From assembly GCA_021846225.1 (NCBI GenBank), contig JAJZCG010000020.1, positions 1 through 36,001 of the forward strand: a stretch of DNA of 36,001 nucleotides, read 5' to 3'. Of the stretch, positions 9,473 through 14,615 are shown in pieces. This DNA comes from Pseudomonadota bacterium (GTDB lineage Bacteria; Pseudomonadota; Alphaproteobacteria; Acetobacterales; Acetobacteraceae). The notes below the pieces were generated by a model. It was not told the DNA's origin and did no database searches. It saw nothing but the letters and a program-made list of their open reading frames with translations. Position 1 is the stretch's first letter, and each line of letters starts with the position of its first letter. The position numbers and the translations under genes were made by a program.

Positions 9473-10144
9473 TTACAGCAGGATCGGCCGGTCTGGAAAT
9501 GCGAGTTGCTCGCGGTCGCTCCAGCCTCTGACGTAATTCACCTCCATCAAACGGCGCACACCGTTGATCGGGCGCTTCTCGAATCCATGCCAGGTGTTGG
9601 GACCCGCCTTGAAAATGGTTGCCGTGTTGAAGCCCGCGGATGATCGCCCCACCCATTTCTTCTGATCGTCATATATATCCGTGCCCCAATCCTTGGCGTC
9701 CGGCCCGGTGCAGAGATATACGACCATTGAAAATATCTTCTCTGGAACATCGCGATGCGGCTCCAGCCACATTCCGTCGGTATCCTGCATGTATTCAACG
9801 CGCAGAAATGTGCCCCTTGCATCAATATCGCATGTTTCTTGAAATTGATGCGCGACATCGGGATGTTGCAATGCCTCAGTTAACTGCTTGCAAACAGGAA
9901 ATTTCTCACGCAGCTCCGGCGTAATGAACGTACGCTTCGCATTGTAGGAATTGCGTGTTCCATCCGTGCTGCCCAGCATTGGAGGCACGATGGGAAGAAC
10001 AAGGATCGCCGTACAAAGGGACTCCGGCAATACATGCGTAAGGCCCCAGCGCAGATAATGATCTTCTTTACGCTGTGCGGCACGCAGCGAACAGATAAAA
10101 TGATCGACGATGGTATCCAGGGTGGGAATACGAGGATAAGCCAT
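9473..10144 (-). CDS. 2-oxoglutarate/Fe(II) oxygenase-fold protein (last gene of ubi operon)
   Basis: A 223-residue protein with the jelly-roll Fe(II)/2-oxoglutarate motif. The iron ligands are His130 and Asp132 in LEPHRDVPEK and His186 in NTWHGFEK; Arg197/Arg198 (GVRRLMEV) is the likely 2-oxoglutarate anchor. The spacing fits the family. Strands around MVVYLC and ATIFKAG support the fold. It is the last gene of the tight operon starting at ubiT, five bases after its neighbour, which has the same fold but low overall identity. The substrate is unknown. Hydroxylation of a small molecule, a lipid quinone precursor or a protein side chain is possible; only the fold and metal site are seen. Confidence 0.75.
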   Translation of the reverse strand: MAYPRIPTLDTIVDHFICSLRAAQRKEDHYLRWGLTHVLPESLCTAILVLPIVPPMLGSTDGTRNSYNAKRTFITPELREKFPVCKQLTEALQHPDVAHQFQETCDIDARGTFLRVEYMQDTDGMWLEPHRDVPEKIFSMVVYLCTGPDAKDWGTDIYDDQKKWVGRSSAGFNTATIFKAGPNTWHGFEKRPINGVRRLMEVNYVRGWSDREQLAFPDRPILL

Positions 10145-10149
10145 AGAGA

Positions 10150-10836
10150 TCAGCCCTTATTGCCAAAAGAACGAGGCATCCAGTCAATTATCTGACGAAC
10201 GATGGGAATGGATTTAGCGAAGCTGCTCAGACCATGGCGGATATTTTCACGATGCACATACCATTCCGAATCGACATAACAAAGTTGTACGCTCATTCTA
10301 TTGCCTTTTTGCGGCAGGAATCCGTGCCAGGAATGATCGCAGACACGGAACATCAGCATTTTGCCAAATTCCGGAGCAAATTCGAACGCGTAGTCATCGC
10401 GGTCGTTGCTGCGCAGCACCCGCAGCCGGCCACGCTCATGCGGCCATTCTGCTGTAAAACCAAGCAAAACAGTAATGATTTTATGTTTCGAATCAGGATG
10501 TGCATATCCCTCATTGTAGTGCCCGGTGGTATTTCCCATCATCACGATGCTGGCAGGCTTGTTGCTTAAATCGATATCAAACTTCTGCTCAACCAGGCGC
10601 CGGAAACGAGGGCTAAGAAGATCCTGCATGCAGTTGGAGAATTTCTGTCCATATCGCAAATTCGCTAGTGCGTAACTGCCCCGATCCGGAATAACCGGCA
10701 CATCAGCGAGAACCTCCGCCTTATGATCGGCGCTGATGGCATTCTCAACAAACGTATAATCGTAAGGGTCGCGCCGGAGTTCGGCTGCTTTTATGGCGGC
10801 TTCGTCAAGCATAAGGAACGGTGCATCGTCTGACAT
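10150..10836 (-). CDS. 2-oxoglutarate/Fe(II) oxygenase-fold protein
   Basis: A 228-residue protein of the Fe(II)/2-oxoglutarate oxygenase superfamily. Ligands visible are His113 and Asp115 (YAHPDSKHK) and His171 (DHSWHGFLPQ), with Arg180 (GNRMSVQLCYV) as the probable 2-oxoglutarate contact. The strand ITVLLGFTAEWP and the element RGRLRVLRSNDRDD fit the double-stranded beta-helix. It lies 24 bases after the chorismatase-like gene and five bases before the second oxygenase-fold gene, so the two may act as a pair. Such enzymes need O2, which is odd in an operon headed by the oxygen-independent ubiquinone system and a FNR box. The substrate is unknown. Confidence 0.77.
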   Translation of the reverse strand: MSDDAPFLMLDEAAIKAAELRRDPYDYTFVENAISADHKAEVLADVPVIPDRGSYALANLRYGQKFSNCMQDLLSPRFRRLVEQKFDIDLSNKPASIVMMGNTTGHYNEGYAHPDSKHKIITVLLGFTAEWPHERGRLRVLRSNDRDDYAFEFAPEFGKMLMFRVCDHSWHGFLPQKGNRMSVQLCYVDSEWYVHRENIRHGLSSFAKSIPIVRQIIDWMPRSFGNKG

Positions 10837-10860
10837 TTTCGGGACCTTGTTTCTGGCCGA

Positions 10861-12009
10861 TTAAAAGGAAGGCAGCAGAGGATTATCGTTTTTTGTAATC
10901 GCGACACCCTCAATTTCGATGAGCCAGGCCGGACGGCAGACAGCCCCCTGAACAATAAAAATTGGCAGATCTGGAAAGCGTGCGCGTAGAACCCGGTTGA
11001 CGCCCTGGAAATCGGCGATATCACGCAGATAGACCAGCAGATACATCATATCATCAAGGGTTGCTGCGCCGGATTTAAGCAAGACATCGGTATTTTCCAG
11101 CGCACGGTCCAACTGGAGCAATACATCTCCAGGATGCACAACATCTCCTTGCTTATCAATGCTGGCGGTTCCTGAAATATAATGATGCCGTCTCTCTTTG
11201 TAAGAGACCGTTGTGCCGCGTTCAAAAGTTACATTGTAATCCTTGGTTGGGCATAGATAGTCGAAGTCGTTGAGATAGGATATCTGCCCTGGCACAAGGT
11301 CAAGATTTGAATAGGCATCCATGGAGACAAGATCAAACCGATGAGAACAGGCGCCTTGAATCCCGGTGCTGGCGATGTAGTGCGTATTGGCTGTTAAGCC
11401 GTGTTTGGAGAATATGTCTCGCCGGCTGTCGACCATGCCTTTATAAAAGACATCGACATCCTTCATATAAATCCATGTCCGTACGCAGTGATCCGCCAGG
11501 TTCGCTTTCTGCTCGGTGAGTACGGATGACAAATCGTCAAATATCGCCTTTGTCTGTTTCTCAGAAGAATTTGATGTCTCGTGATCGCAAGTACAAAGAC
11601 GTGTGCTCCAAAGATGACGTTGCCCCTCTTTTTCGACCAGCAGGTGCTTTGAGGAAAGCCGGCGCTTTGTGAACGGCTTCATGGCTTTAACATGATAAGC
11701 CAGCAGCGCGATTTTTGATCCCTGGAGCGGCGGTTGTTGTACGATTGAGATGGCGACCATATCGTCGAGAAGGTCGCTTTCTCTGATAAAGCTCGCCTGG
11801 TTCAATACGTCGCTCAGAAATATCCTGCGAAATACAGCGGTCTCTGGCGAAAGGGCAAGCTGCCTTTGCATGTCAAGATAATTTGCGTTGACGAAGGCCA
11901 CCTGCTCCTTGAAACTAAGGTCTTCAGGTGCTTGAATCGAAATGAAATGCTCTTCAGTGCCGGAATCTCCCGTGAAAGTCTTGCACGAAATTCCTTGATT
12001 AGAAGTCAT
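10861..12009 (-). CDS. Chorismatase/RidA-like protein in the ubiTUV operon
   Basis: A 382-residue protein built of RidA (YjgF)-like segments. The C-terminal part (about 270-372) has HYISGTASIDKQGDVVHPGDV and ends VCRPAWLIEIEGVA. A middle part contains VRTWIYMKDVDVFYKGMVDSRR and IASTGIQG. These blocks line up in order with the true chorismatase at 34841 (RFWNYLTGIT, ERYRRFNTGR, ASGVGG, FISGTASI, ICRADLLLEIEA), so this is a remote chorismatase-family member. The chorismatase signatures WNY and ERYR-FN-GR are not conserved. It may bind chorismate or another ring acid rather than hydrolyse it, or be an imine deaminase. The start at 12009 (MTSNQGISC) has AGGA upstream. It lies ten bases after ubiV. 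Confidence 0.7.
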   Translation of the reverse strand: MTSNQGISCKTFTGDSGTEEHFISIQAPEDLSFKEQVAFVNANYLDMQRQLALSPETAVFRRIFLSDVLNQASFIRESDLLDDMVAISIVQQPPLQGSKIALLAYHVKAMKPFTKRRLSSKHLLVEKEGQRHLWSTRLCTCDHETSNSSEKQTKAIFDDLSSVLTEQKANLADHCVRTWIYMKDVDVFYKGMVDSRRDIFSKHGLTANTHYIASTGIQGACSHRFDLVSMDAYSNLDLVPGQISYLNDFDYLCPTKDYNVTFERGTTVSYKERRHHYISGTASIDKQGDVVHPGDVLLQLDRALENTDVLLKSGAATLDDMMYLLVYLRDIADFQGVNRVLRARFPDLPIFIVQGAVCRPAWLIEIEGVAITKNDNPLLPSF

Positions 12010-12019
12010 AATCTCTATC

Positions 12020-12949
12020 CTATGCACGGTTTTCGACCCAGGCAAACCCTTCGGAGCCATGCCAGAAGCCATTTATAAAGGGTACGGTATCTGTCACAGC
12101 CTTCAGCGTTTCCAAAGCTTCCGCAGGATCACATTTCCGGTCCAAAACATTACGGTACACATGGGAAACCCGCGCCATATCCACATCCTGCGGAGAAAGA
12201 CGGAAATGGCTTACCCCCATGTTCTGAAGTTTTGCCAACTCCTGCAGAAGCACGACATAGCCGTGGGACATTGTCTGCGTGCCATTGACCGCCAGGATCG
12301 GTTGTTGATCGACGGTATTCGTCTGCAACCCATCCTGATCCAGACCGCAAACAAATTGACAGCTATCTTTGTTGAGCTCATGCGCGCGGGCATGATAACA
12401 GCGCATGGCGACGGAGAGTGGCTGGCGCCCAAAAACCATGACCTCGATTTCGGTGGCTGCGCCGCCACCTGCCAACCTGTCGACCGATTCCGCGGCCATC
12501 TCAACCGGCAGAACAATGCGTGTGGCGTTGTTCTTTACAAGGTAGTCGCGCGTGCTTTCATTGAACACATTGATAAAAGGGCCGATGACATGAGGCCTTC
12601 CGTGCAATGCCTGCAGGCTGGCAACGTCATTGGCTTCGACCATGAAACCCGCATCGGCGTAAGCTGAAACCGTGCTCATTTCGCGTTTTGATGTGACGAG
12701 TGCCAGGGTGGAGACGATCACTTCCTTGCCGGCTTTTTGAAGTCTCTCCGACACAACGGGAAGAAACTCCTTGAAAAATATCTCCCGTTTCGAACAGACA
12801 ACCTCGCCGAGATAGACACTGTCTATGGCGGCTTCATCAGCGATACGGAAATAGAAGTCGCGGCGTTTTTCCGCGGTCCAATGAAAAAAAAGTGGCCCGA
12901 GGGTAATTTTCCCCGCTGGGGAATTCTGCGTATTTTGATTTTCGGTCAT
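12020..12949 (-). CDS. ubiV: Oxygen-independent ubiquinone hydroxylation protein UbiV (U32 family)
   Basis: UbiV pairs with UbiU in a complex carrying [4Fe-4S] clusters that hydroxylates the ubiquinone ring without O2, using prephenate as oxygen source in studied species. The 309-residue protein begins KITLGPLFFHW, then VYLGEVVCSKR and VSTLALV, as in E. coli UbiV. All four cluster cysteines are found: one in GEVVCSKR, and three in MRCYHARAHELNKDSCQFVC with the expected 13 and 4 residue spacing. NGTQTMSHGYVVLL and FRLSPQ are also conserved. It is two bases after ubiU and ten before the chorismatase-like gene, in one operon. Confidence 0.92.
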   Translation of the reverse strand: MTENQNTQNSPAGKITLGPLFFHWTAEKRRDFYFRIADEAAIDSVYLGEVVCSKREIFFKEFLPVVSERLQKAGKEVIVSTLALVTSKREMSTVSAYADAGFMVEANDVASLQALHGRPHVIGPFINVFNESTRDYLVKNNATRIVLPVEMAAESVDRLAGGGAATEIEVMVFGRQPLSVAMRCYHARAHELNKDSCQFVCGLDQDGLQTNTVDQQPILAVNGTQTMSHGYVVLLQELAKLQNMGVSHFRLSPQDVDMARVSHVYRNVLDRKCDPAEALETLKAVTDTVPFINGFWHGSEGFAWVENRA

Positions 12950-12951
12950 GG

Positions 12952-13947
12952 CTAGCGCCAGCCTTTCTTGTAGGCGCCAGATGTCTCGCGGCCACCCTCT
13001 GCCATTGTTTTCAGATCACCAGAGCCGTGTGTTTGCGTACCCGCGGCCAGATCATCAAGCGCCTTGCGGAAAGTACCTACAACTTTTGAAACATAGGCAC
13101 GGCTGCGCTGGCGCCCTTCGATTTTCAGAGCCGTGACGCCGGCCGCCTTGAGTTGGGGAAGAATATCCACTGCATTCAGGCCAATCGGTTCCTCGAACAA
13201 ATAAGAGGTACGGCCATTTGCCTCATAGCGCCCTTTGCACGGCGTGGGGTAGGCGGCGGGTTCATCCTTTGAAAATTTATTCAGCGTGACGCTGCCGAGG
13301 CAGGATTTGATGCAGTGATTATCATCCTGATACACAACATGGCTTGCCGGCGCGCAGACGCCTTCATGGGTCGGTGAGAGACCTGTCATGTAGGAGGAAA
13401 GAAAACAACGCCCTTCCGACATGGGGCCGACGCTGCCAAAGGCAAACACCTCGGTCTCCATTTCTGTCTGCTGAATCAGAGATGCGACATCCTCGATCGA
13501 TAAGACTCGCGGCAGCACGACTCGCTTGATATCAAAATGCTCGCGATAGAAAAGGATCGACAAGGCGTTCGCGGCCGATGCCTGGACGGAGAGATGGCGC
13601 CGCAGCCCGGGATGGCTGCGTGTGGCGTAATCAAGCAGTCCAATGTCAGCCAGAATAATCGCGTCAGCGCCAGCTATGGCGGCGTTATCAACGGCCTGAT
13701 GCCATGATTTTTCCTGCCCGGCGCGTGGAAATGTATTGATGGTGACAAGAACCTTGCACCCGTGCTCATGCGCATAGGTGACGCCGGCTATCATCTCATC
13801 CATATCAAAGTTGAGGCCAGGATAATTGCGCGCATTCGTGCAATCACGGAATCCGCAATAGACGGTATCCGCACCGGCGGCGACAGCGGCATGCAAGGCG
13901 GCCGGGGTTCCCGCGGGGCAGACAAGTTCAAGATATGAAGATCTCAT
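12952..13947 (-). CDS. ubiU: Oxygen-independent ubiquinone hydroxylation protein UbiU (U32 family), one cluster Cys missing
   Basis: Partner of UbiV, from the peptidase U32 family but not a protease. The 331 residues carry the family blocks LELVCPAGTPAAL, TNARNYPGLNF, HLSVQASAAN, VVLPRVLSI, MSEGRCFLSSYMTG, PCKGRY, and KIEGRQRSRAYVSKV at the C-terminus. Three of the four [4Fe-4S] cysteines of E. coli UbiU have counterparts (Cys181, Cys198, Cys237). The first (E. coli Cys169, in GSLCIMSEGRC) is Gly174 here (GSVGPMSEGRC, codon GGC). Two extra Cys (212 and 216) in a nearby loop could substitute. The gene overlaps ubiT by four bases (ATGA). Confidence 0.9.
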   Translation of the reverse strand: MRSSYLELVCPAGTPAALHAAVAAGADTVYCGFRDCTNARNYPGLNFDMDEMIAGVTYAHEHGCKVLVTINTFPRAGQEKSWHQAVDNAAIAGADAIILADIGLLDYATRSHPGLRRHLSVQASAANALSILFYREHFDIKRVVLPRVLSIEDVASLIQQTEMETEVFAFGSVGPMSEGRCFLSSYMTGLSPTHEGVCAPASHVVYQDDNHCIKSCLGSVTLNKFSKDEPAAYPTPCKGRYEANGRTSYLFEEPIGLNAVDILPQLKAAGVTALKIEGRQRSRAYVSKVVGTFRKALDDLAAGTQTHGSGDLKTMAEGGRETSGAYKKGWR

Positions 13948-14615
13948 AGGGCGGATGCATCCATTCTTTTCCCGCGCACTTCGAATTTCGCGAGCCGGAA
14001 TTTAAGTGCCTTAATCTCTTCCTGGAGTCTGGCACATTCAAGCTTCGCGGCGGTCTCATCGGCATCACGCGAATACCGCCGCTCGTGCGCATTTTTCATG
14101 GATGTTTTGATGTGGTCCATGAATTTATTCACTCTGACAATCACCTTGCGCGCGGGATTTGAAACCGGCCCGCACATGGCGGAAATGTCGTCCAGAAGGC
14201 GGATTTCTTCGCGGTCAAGCGTATTACGCAAGGCGACGACAACGGCGGTATCGCCGGTGATGATGATTTCACGCGAGAAGAACATCATGTCGCTGTCAAT
14301 GCGGCCCTCGAGCAAATTGAGCAATGATTCCAATTTTCCTTTGACGGCAGCATCGCAGGAATATCCCGCGCGCGGCGCCGTTCGTAAGGATGTTGGGCCT
14401 TGGCCAAACTTCAAAACAAAGCGGTACGGCAGATCAGAGGGCTCTATGCAGACGGTGGCCGCATCCAGACGGGCGAGATTCTGAAACAAGCCTGGATGAA
14501 TCTTCTGCATCCTGCGTATCAAAAGATACGTCAGGCGATTTAACACGGATTCGGGTATCACACGCAATGCCACACGCGCCAGAGGAACGGGAAGTCGACT
14601 TTCATCCATACTCAT
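13944..14615 (-). CDS. ubiT: UbiT-like SCP2-domain protein with coiled-coil tail
   Basis: UbiT is the SCP2-type lipid-binding accessory factor of the oxygen-independent ubiquinone pathway, thought to hold prenylated intermediates. This copy has 223 residues against about 174 in E. coli. The N-terminal part (PLARVALRVIPESVLNRLTYLL) is amphipathic. The SCP2 core follows (about 45-150), with CIEPSDLPYRFVLKF, FSREIIITGDTAVVVALRNTLD and DEREI-like blocks. A C-terminal extension from about residue 175 (DADETAAKLECARLQEEIKALKFRLAKFEV) is heptad-like and predicted coiled coil. It is the first gene of the operon, overlaps ubiU by ATGA, and lies about 70 bases downstream of a FNR box. Identity rests on its place beside ubiUV as well as on sequence. 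Confidence 0.83.
   Translation of the reverse strand: MSMDESRLPVPLARVALRVIPESVLNRLTYLLIRRMQKIHPGLFQNLARLDAATVCIEPSDLPYRFVLKFGQGPTSLRTAPRAGYSCDAAVKGKLESLLNLLEGRIDSDMMFFSREIIITGDTAVVVALRNTLDREEIRLLDDISAMCGPVSNPARKVIVRVNKFMDHIKTSMKNAHERRYSRDADETAAKLECARLQEEIKALKFRLAKFEVRGKRMDASAL

Follow-up and report, generated by a model that had tools for sequence, protein, structure and literature searches.

The DNA analysed here (the window) is the entire 36,001-base contig JAJZCG010000020.1 of assembly GCA_021846225.1, from a member of the Acetobacteraceae (genome 2.69 Mb, 97.8% complete). Between positions 9473 and 14615 it carries an operon in which ubiT, ubiU and ubiV, the genes of O2-independent ubiquinone synthesis, are followed by three more: chor, encoding a protein of predicted chorismatase fold, and 2OGB and 2OGA, encoding two putative Fe(II)/2-oxoglutarate (Fe/2OG) oxygenases. 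Comparison with relatives showed that chor, 2OGB and 2OGA make up a trio of their own (hereafter "the trio"), kept together across many lineages, and that this trio occurs mostly in Proteobacteria that also have UbiV, often with the same predicted FNR-type site upstream even where it is unlinked to ubiTUV. The trio is a real accessory module to O2-independent ubiquinone synthesis, apparently undescribed so far, with a mechanism that we infer. Our preferred reading of the window, held tentatively and a little short of even, is a low-oxygen operon of two modules, ubiTUV and a trio acting on an aromatic or quinone product at the oxic–anoxic boundary. A search of the open-access literature revealed no description of the trio with ubiTUV among the matches listed (title and start of abstract), preprints and most subscription journals lying outside its scope; as evidence of novelty this negative result is weak.

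Conservation of the trio

A scan of 84,980 species, each represented by a single genome, with the chor alignment gave 157 confirmed relatives. The analysis covered the best 80 of them: 69 close loci (46–96% identity) and 11 distant ones (38–43%), with the near-identical loci L079/L083/L090 and L084/L085/L086 counted separately (L-numbers denote relatives' loci, G-numbers genomes). The close loci came from alpha-, beta- and gammaproteobacteria or unresolved Proteobacteria, one genome named only "Bacterium" (L117), four Omnitrophota and one Elusimicrobia. Both oxygenase genes were present in the fetched flanks of 57 of the 69, mostly adjacent, and in 45 of the 53 close loci having at least 1.7 kb on each side of chor. 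The flanks of the distant loci (Bacteroidales, Lentisphaeria/Victivallales and Spirochaetia) held neither ubi genes nor an oxygenase reaching 45% identity. These loci (L122, L124–L133) were considered as a clue to the product and set aside, with chor standing alone; inspection by eye of chor loci, seven of the distant ones included, revealed no recognisable pigment cluster. Counting the window together with the 80 loci, no clustered family other than the trio and ubiTUV exceeded 8 of 81 sequences; the 8-locus family looked by eye like antisense frames.

Some neighbourhoods, assigned by eye, recurred at low frequency. The trio lies near an acyl-carrier/ketosynthase/dehydratase/acyltransferase cluster of the very-long-chain lipid A acyl type in L062, L070, L113, L117, L120 and, in part, L079; present in 6 of the 69 loci, this was weighed as a hint of a lipid substrate and is considered below under a product other than ubiquinone. 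An anaerobic ribonucleotide reductase-like family is found near the trio in L056, L096, L097, L103 and L112, together with an activase-like partner in four of them. In the Omnitrophota loci L092 and L093, cytochrome bd oxidase-like genes are divergent from chor and one gene away from it.

Linkage and co-occurrence with UbiTUV

The order was sampled by 100 genomes, which span 34 genera of a single family. Full-length chor, UbiV, close 2OGA (57–65% identity to the window) and close 2OGB (73–74%) were found there in the same five genomes (G000, G019, G065, G073 and G090, the window's included); the chance of the chor and UbiV sets coinciding is 1.3e-8 under independence of the genomes, which does not hold. 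These counts leave out 15 of the 20 genomes with chor matches at E ≤ 1e-5, which aligned to the C-terminal Rid part only (26–35 bits), as well as genomes with only distant relatives of 2OGA (34 of 39, ≤41% identity) or of 2OGB (66 of 71, ≤36%). The window's genome carries, in addition, a second 2OGA of 43% identity. In G065 and G090 the trio and ubiV lie on separate contigs and so do not form one operon, and G087, a second genome of the window's genus, contained no orthologue of UbiV, chor, 2OGA or 2OGB. In a sample of the class (385 genomes), chor occurred in three genomes, the window's included, and UbiV in 43; all three chor genomes hold UbiV.

The condition set in the earlier note for its own refutation, three added genes unlinked to ubiTUV in all relatives, does not apply, and the linkage is far more frequent than expected of unrelated genes: ubiU or ubiV lay inside the fetched flanks of 22 of the 69 close loci. 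This corresponds to 22 of the 62 chor genomes that are proteobacterial by name (L117, named only "Bacterium", being counted with them), and to 8 of the 27 loci whose flanks each extend for 9.5 kb or more. Among the other 40 proteobacterial chor genomes, UbiV was encoded elsewhere in 32 (31 over the cut-off and one as a contig-start piece at 272.8 of 275 bits); L111 and L114 stand outside this count. UbiA exceeded its cut-off in 15 of the 16 proteobacterial chor genomes tested, G142 having two pieces (best 225.6 of 275 bits).

The joint arrangements varied. The order ubiTUV-chor-2OGB-2OGA was found in the window and L054; 2OGA-2OGB divergent from ubiTUV-chor in four loci; ubiTUV-chor without oxygenase genes in three, one of them ending at a contig edge; chor-2OGB-2OGA-ubiTUV in three; ubiVUT divergent from 2OGB-chor in one; and ubiUV on the opposite strand near 2OGB-2OGA-chor in three, with looser arrangements elsewhere. 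In a tree of chor, the only gene placed on one, the window's protein grouped with gammaproteobacterial L056 (100/97), outside the supported Acidiphilium and Rhodopila groups. This placement and the differing gene orders suggest repeated joining of the two modules after horizontal transfer, which would be the simplest reading. The earlier note described a single six-gene operon; in most relatives the trio genes begin a separate operon (55 of 66 trio-holding operons, Omnitrophota and Elusimicrobia excluded).

FNR-type sites upstream of the trio

The consensus site of FNR/FixK-type regulators is TTGATN4ATCAA. At one mismatch or fewer the window contained 2 such sites compared with 0.88 in shuffled sequence, so that the palindrome upstream of ubiT (Table 1) is not significant by itself. 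Across the relatives, a perfect box within 250 bp upstream was found at 8 of 11 operons joining ubi genes and trio, 22 of 55 trio operons lacking ubi genes and 2 of 8 operons of ubi genes alone, against shuffle expectations of 0.00, 0.01 and 0.00, respectively; these counts exclude six operons whose start was truncated at the end of a locus. When five trio operons sharing a divergent intergenic region with ubiT were removed, the perfect box remained at 18 of 50. Other open reading frames (ORFs) of at least 200 aa in the same loci had it in 11 of 538 cases, a crude control in that the set includes intra-operon genes and the loci are not independent. The Elusimicrobia locus had no perfect box upstream.

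Given the co-occurrence with UbiV and the frequency of perfect boxes (22/55 vs 11/538), the trio very probably belongs to a low-oxygen regulon together with UbiTUV, and it appears to be switched on along with them. Activation of ubiUV by Fnr is reported in E. coli (PMC10470549).

The UbiT, UbiU and UbiV proteins

UbiT, UbiU and UbiV all exceeded their NCBIfam equivalog cut-offs, which upholds the names given to them in the earlier note; the other three proteins received no equivalog assignment. The role of these proteins in O2-free ubiquinone synthesis is described as established for E. coli (PMC6747719, PMC10470549), and the [4Fe-4S] motifs are given as CXnCX12CX3C in UbiV and CX6CX16CX38C in UbiU (PMC6747719). 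The UbiV motif was complete (C52, C184, C197 and C201) in 22 of 22 rows. The UbiU motif was incomplete: residue 174, at the position of the first Cys (E. coli C169), is Gly, and the other three Cys are kept. The same Gly, and no alternative replacement residue, was found in 29 of 80 distinct UbiU sequences (14 of 22 linked to chor, 9 of 23 encoded elsewhere in chor genomes and 6 of 35 from genomes without chor); since so many share it, natural variation appears a better description than decay.

Compared with the E. coli UbiT-UbiU-UbiV system, the window has in common the three families, an FNR-type upstream site and the cluster cysteines of UbiV; it differs in that ubiTUV is colinear, whereas ubiT is divergent in E. 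coli, in the three extra genes, and in a UbiU without one of its four cluster cysteines.

Predicted fold and active site of chor

The earlier note had called one of the three added genes chorismatase-like, and both the predicted fold and the active-site residues agree. The AlphaFold2 model of the full chain reached a mean pLDDT of 93, and its top seven Foldseek matches were chorismatase chains of FkbO (4bps) and Hyg5 (5a3k/5ag3) at E values of 1.8e-17 to 5.9e-16, with Rid proteins ranking next at 5e-8 or worse. The template modelling (TM) scores against the chorismatase chains were 0.58–0.64 by query and 0.67–0.74 by target, the two-domain fold covering the whole chain, and the C-terminal part is a Rid/YjgF domain (PF01042, 58 bits). 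HMMER alignments placed E374 at the catalytic Glu of Hyg5 (E334) and revealed G289 and C367 to be of the Hyg5 type at two diagnostic positions, both Ala in FkbO; the three residues were invariant across all 60 close rows, the window's among them, and across the 8 distant rows aligned. Gly, Gly and Cys are described as marks of the chorismatase class that forms 3-hydroxybenzoate (3-HBA) (PMC7170507), and the positions were mapped by shifting the Nat-hyg5 numbering given there by 9 throughout. With this shift FkbO, too, has the first of these Gly, which leaves two informative positions, and the reaction of a chorismatase is stated not to be accurately predictable from alignment alone (PMC3949708).

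In common with FkbO and Hyg5, chor has the whole-length fold, the catalytic Glu and the Hyg5-type Gly and Cys; it differs in its identity of only 16–18% and in an N-terminal half that the Pfam FkbO/Hyg5 N-domain does not recognise (1 of 45 members, E 0.0087). Because it scored 42.3 bits against the FkbO/Hyg5 family TIGR04444, below the cut-off of 325, we name it chorismatase-like and not a member of that family. By description only, it can be likened to the XanB2/ArcB type, reported as makers of 3-HBA and 4-hydroxybenzoate (4-HBA) that combine a chorismatase with a C-terminal YjgF part and have a link to ubiquinone in Xanthomonas (PMC3949708).

The two putative oxygenases

Against PF13640, 2OGB scored 30.9 bits (cut-off 27) and 2OGA 21 bits, under the cut-off. 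The HxD...H triad was intact in 57 of 57 rows for each protein (residues in Table 1), and a candidate 2OG-binding Arg was kept as R180 in at least 97% of 2OGB rows and as R197 and R198 in 57 of 57 rows of 2OGA; both proteins look like Fe/2OG oxygenases, in agreement with the oxygenase folds named in the earlier note. The model of 2OGB (mean pLDDT 80) gave PasI and PolD as best Foldseek matches, followed by Tpa1 and prolyl hydroxylases; PasI and PolD (PDB 9ei6/9ei7 and 9blq) were also its best profile matches, at an identity of 21–23%. The 2OGA profile matched PasI (9ei6, E 0.00033), the sole PDB sequence match at E ≤ 1. Going by the title of entry 9ei7, PasI acts on a nucleoside-antibiotic intermediate, and PolD is a biosynthetic enzyme of small molecules. 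A PHROGs search returned no match at E ≤ 0.1.

Paralogues of these genes occur elsewhere. The window's genome has a second, diverged tandem 2OGB-2OGA pair (G000:C61:9739-10999, locus L137), and similar pairs were seen in G087, G057 and G062; the fetched stretches around them contained nothing that matched ubiTUV. A 2OGA paralogue at L144 (9216-9920) and L150 (8992-9648) adjoins, by eye, genes for electron-transfer-flavoprotein (ETF):ubiquinone oxidoreductase and EtfB. Such neighbourhoods were rejected as a clue to function: the 14 stretches, one of which (L138) had no match to the query set, showed ETF-type, hemN-, asd- and hemH-like genes by eye and no common theme.

Proposed mechanism

The step of which we are most certain is that a predicted FNR/FixK-type regulator would turn on both modules as O2 falls. 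With less certainty, chor would cleave chorismate, without O2, into pyruvate and a hydroxybenzoate; because its diagnostic residues are those of Hyg5, 3-HBA or a mixture of 3- and 4-HBA appears a likelier product than the diol made by FkbO, and such a diol as hydroxyl donor is disfavoured by the same two positions. Least certain is the last step, in which 2OGA and 2OGB, at low but non-zero O2, may hydroxylate the compound derived from this acid or a partner in the quinone pathway. The trio would in this way feed or finish an aromatic or quinone product used with UbiTUV at the oxic–anoxic boundary. A more specific form of this proposal, in which the trio is an undescribed low-oxygen quinone branch, the chor compound providing either the ring precursor or the hydroxyl group transferred by the U32 proteins and the oxygenases completing a modified quinone at trace O2, we regard as unlikely; if true, the branch would yield a quinone or precursor not yet known.

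The source of the oxygen in UbiUV hydroxylation is stated as open, and prephenate is named as a possible oxygen donor of a related U32 enzyme (PMC10470549). The trio provides concrete genes to test for this oxygen source and for the origin of 4-HBA; a new product related to quinones, made at the oxic–anoxic boundary, may lie behind it.

Alternative explanations

A number of observations weigh against a module that works with UbiTUV, beyond the crude control set and the low TIGR04444 score of chor given above. Fe/2OG oxygenases require O2 and are unexpected in an operon whose synthesis is O2-free. Of the 53 loci with sufficient flanks, 8 had only one of the two oxygenase genes or neither (neither in L060, L069, L100, L101, L107, L114 and L119; no 2OGA in L076), L100 and L119 having ubiTUV-chor without them, and 33 of 55 trio operons had no perfect FNR-type box. 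No UbiV was found by genome search in 8 of the 40 proteobacterial chor genomes without local ubi genes; some of these may be incomplete metagenome-assembled genomes, for example G125: L084 and L086, whose chor sequences it almost matches with its own, do carry ubiV. In the class sample, 40 of the 43 UbiV genomes had no chor, from which it follows that ubiTUV does not need the trio. All four Omnitrophota hold the trio with no perfect box upstream, no UbiV over the cut-off, and UbiA scores of 61–114 bits at best (TIGR01474 cut-off 275). The Omnitrophota and the class counts, the Hyg5-like G289 and C367, the presence of UbiC in 8 of 50 chor genomes and the acyl-carrier/ketosynthase/dehydratase-like cluster seen by eye in six loci would all fit a trio product unrelated to ubiquinone, such as a 3-HBA-derived metabolite or a modified lipid, or a recruited U32 pair, linkage then reflecting a shared need at low O2. 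The "different hydroxylated product" raised in the earlier note is mildly favoured by the same four Omnitrophota. We consider such a product unlikely, if a serious contender, given that UbiT, UbiU and UbiV exceed equivalog cut-offs, that UbiA accompanies chor in nearly all proteobacterial genomes tested, and that the trio has been joined to ubiTUV repeatedly and in varied orders.

That chor merely substitutes for UbiC (PF04345) as the source of 4-HBA in a lineage without UbiC, the oxygenases being incidental, is improbable. It would suit the chorismatase fold, the absence of UbiC from the window's genome and the other four order genomes with chor and UbiV, and the case of Xanthomonas, where XanB2 is reported to supply 4-HBA for ubiquinone (PMC3949708). 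However, 92 of the 100 genomes sampled from the order and 381 of the 385 from the class have no UbiC, yet chor occurs in only five and three, and 87 of the 92 UbiC-less order genomes had no full-length chor; another source of 4-HBA must therefore be general. Hyphomicrobium denitrificans is described as having ubiXDTUV and neither UbiC nor XanB2, with its 4-HBA source unexplained (PMC12423496). The 8 of 50 chor genomes that also hold UbiC, together with these counts, indicate that a lack of UbiC is not generally made good by chor, and that chor is not confined to UbiC-less genomes. Its retention alongside both oxygenase genes in 57 of 69 loci also speaks against simple replacement. Replacement of UbiC was accordingly rejected as the whole answer. 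In the earlier note's view of a ring precursor supplied by chor and a partner modified by the oxygenases, the folds and the linkage are supported, and plain supply of 4-HBA is disfavoured. Hitch-hiking, in which trio and ubiTUV are separate low-oxygen genes clustered through transferable anaerobic islands, could account for the transfer suggested by the chor tree and for the anaerobic ribonucleotide reductase-like family of five loci; it is quite improbable, as the coincidence of trio and UbiV extends to G065 and G090, in which the two sit on different contigs, and no further family recurs in more than 8 of 81 sequences. Very improbable is a role of the oxygenases as O2-dependent switches that, on the return of O2, hydroxylate a protein such as UbiT, UbiU or UbiV while chor acts as their ligand-binding partner. 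The 2OGB model does resemble protein prolyl hydroxylases and the two oxygenase genes are usually adjacent, but its best matches are PasI and PolD, small-molecule biosynthetic enzymes (PasI going by the title of 9ei7), and paralogous oxygenase pairs occur away from ubi genes. The two-module low-oxygen operon, despite the points against it, remains the reading that we prefer. The UbiC-bearing genomes were few in both samples: 4 of 385 in the class and, from one genus, 8 of 100 in the order.

Layout of the operon

Recomputed coordinates confirmed the layout reported earlier, with six minus-strand ORFs, each with a single terminal stop, separated by gaps of −4, 2, 10, 24 and 5 bases. The length of chor is counted from the ATG that gives the 10-base gap; an alternative upstream ATG lies at 12072, and the queries began at 12036. 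In the closest named relative, L054 (Acidocella sp. MAG 20), the same six genes recur in the same order with 95–100% protein identity, which argues against an assembly artefact. The palindrome upstream of ubiT and the inverted repeat past 2OGA (Table 1) are additions to the features listed in the earlier note.

Table 1 Features of the operon region in the window
Feature	Position	Strand	Basis and remarks
FNR/FixK-type palindrome TTGATTCAGATCAA	14685..14698	-	0 mismatches; 69 bp 5' of the ubiT start
ubiT, SCP2-domain accessory factor of O2-independent ubiquinone synthesis, 223 aa	13944..14615	-	NF047962, 70.5 bits (cut-off 46.9); PF02036
ubiU, U32-family [4Fe-4S] hydroxylase subunit, 331 aa	12952..13947	-	NF047963, 492.6 bits (cut-off 440)
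ubiV, U32-family [4Fe-4S] hydroxylase subunit, 309 aa	12020..12949	-	NF047965, 354.6 bits (cut-off 275)
chor, chorismatase-fold protein with C-terminal Rid/YjgF domain, 382 aa	10861..12009	-	AlphaFold2, Foldseek, conserved residues
2OGB, putative Fe(II)/2-oxoglutarate oxygenase, 228 aa; H113, D115, H171, R180	10150..10836	-	PF13640, triad, Foldseek
2OGA, putative Fe(II)/2-oxoglutarate oxygenase, 223 aa; H130, D132, H186, R197/R198	9473..10144	-	Triad, profile match to PasI
Perfect 11-bp inverted repeat, 8-base loop	9410..9439	-	33 bp past 2OGA, the last gene

The inverted repeat past 2OGA has no T run and is not among the terminator-like elements listed for the window; it is a possible end of the transcript.

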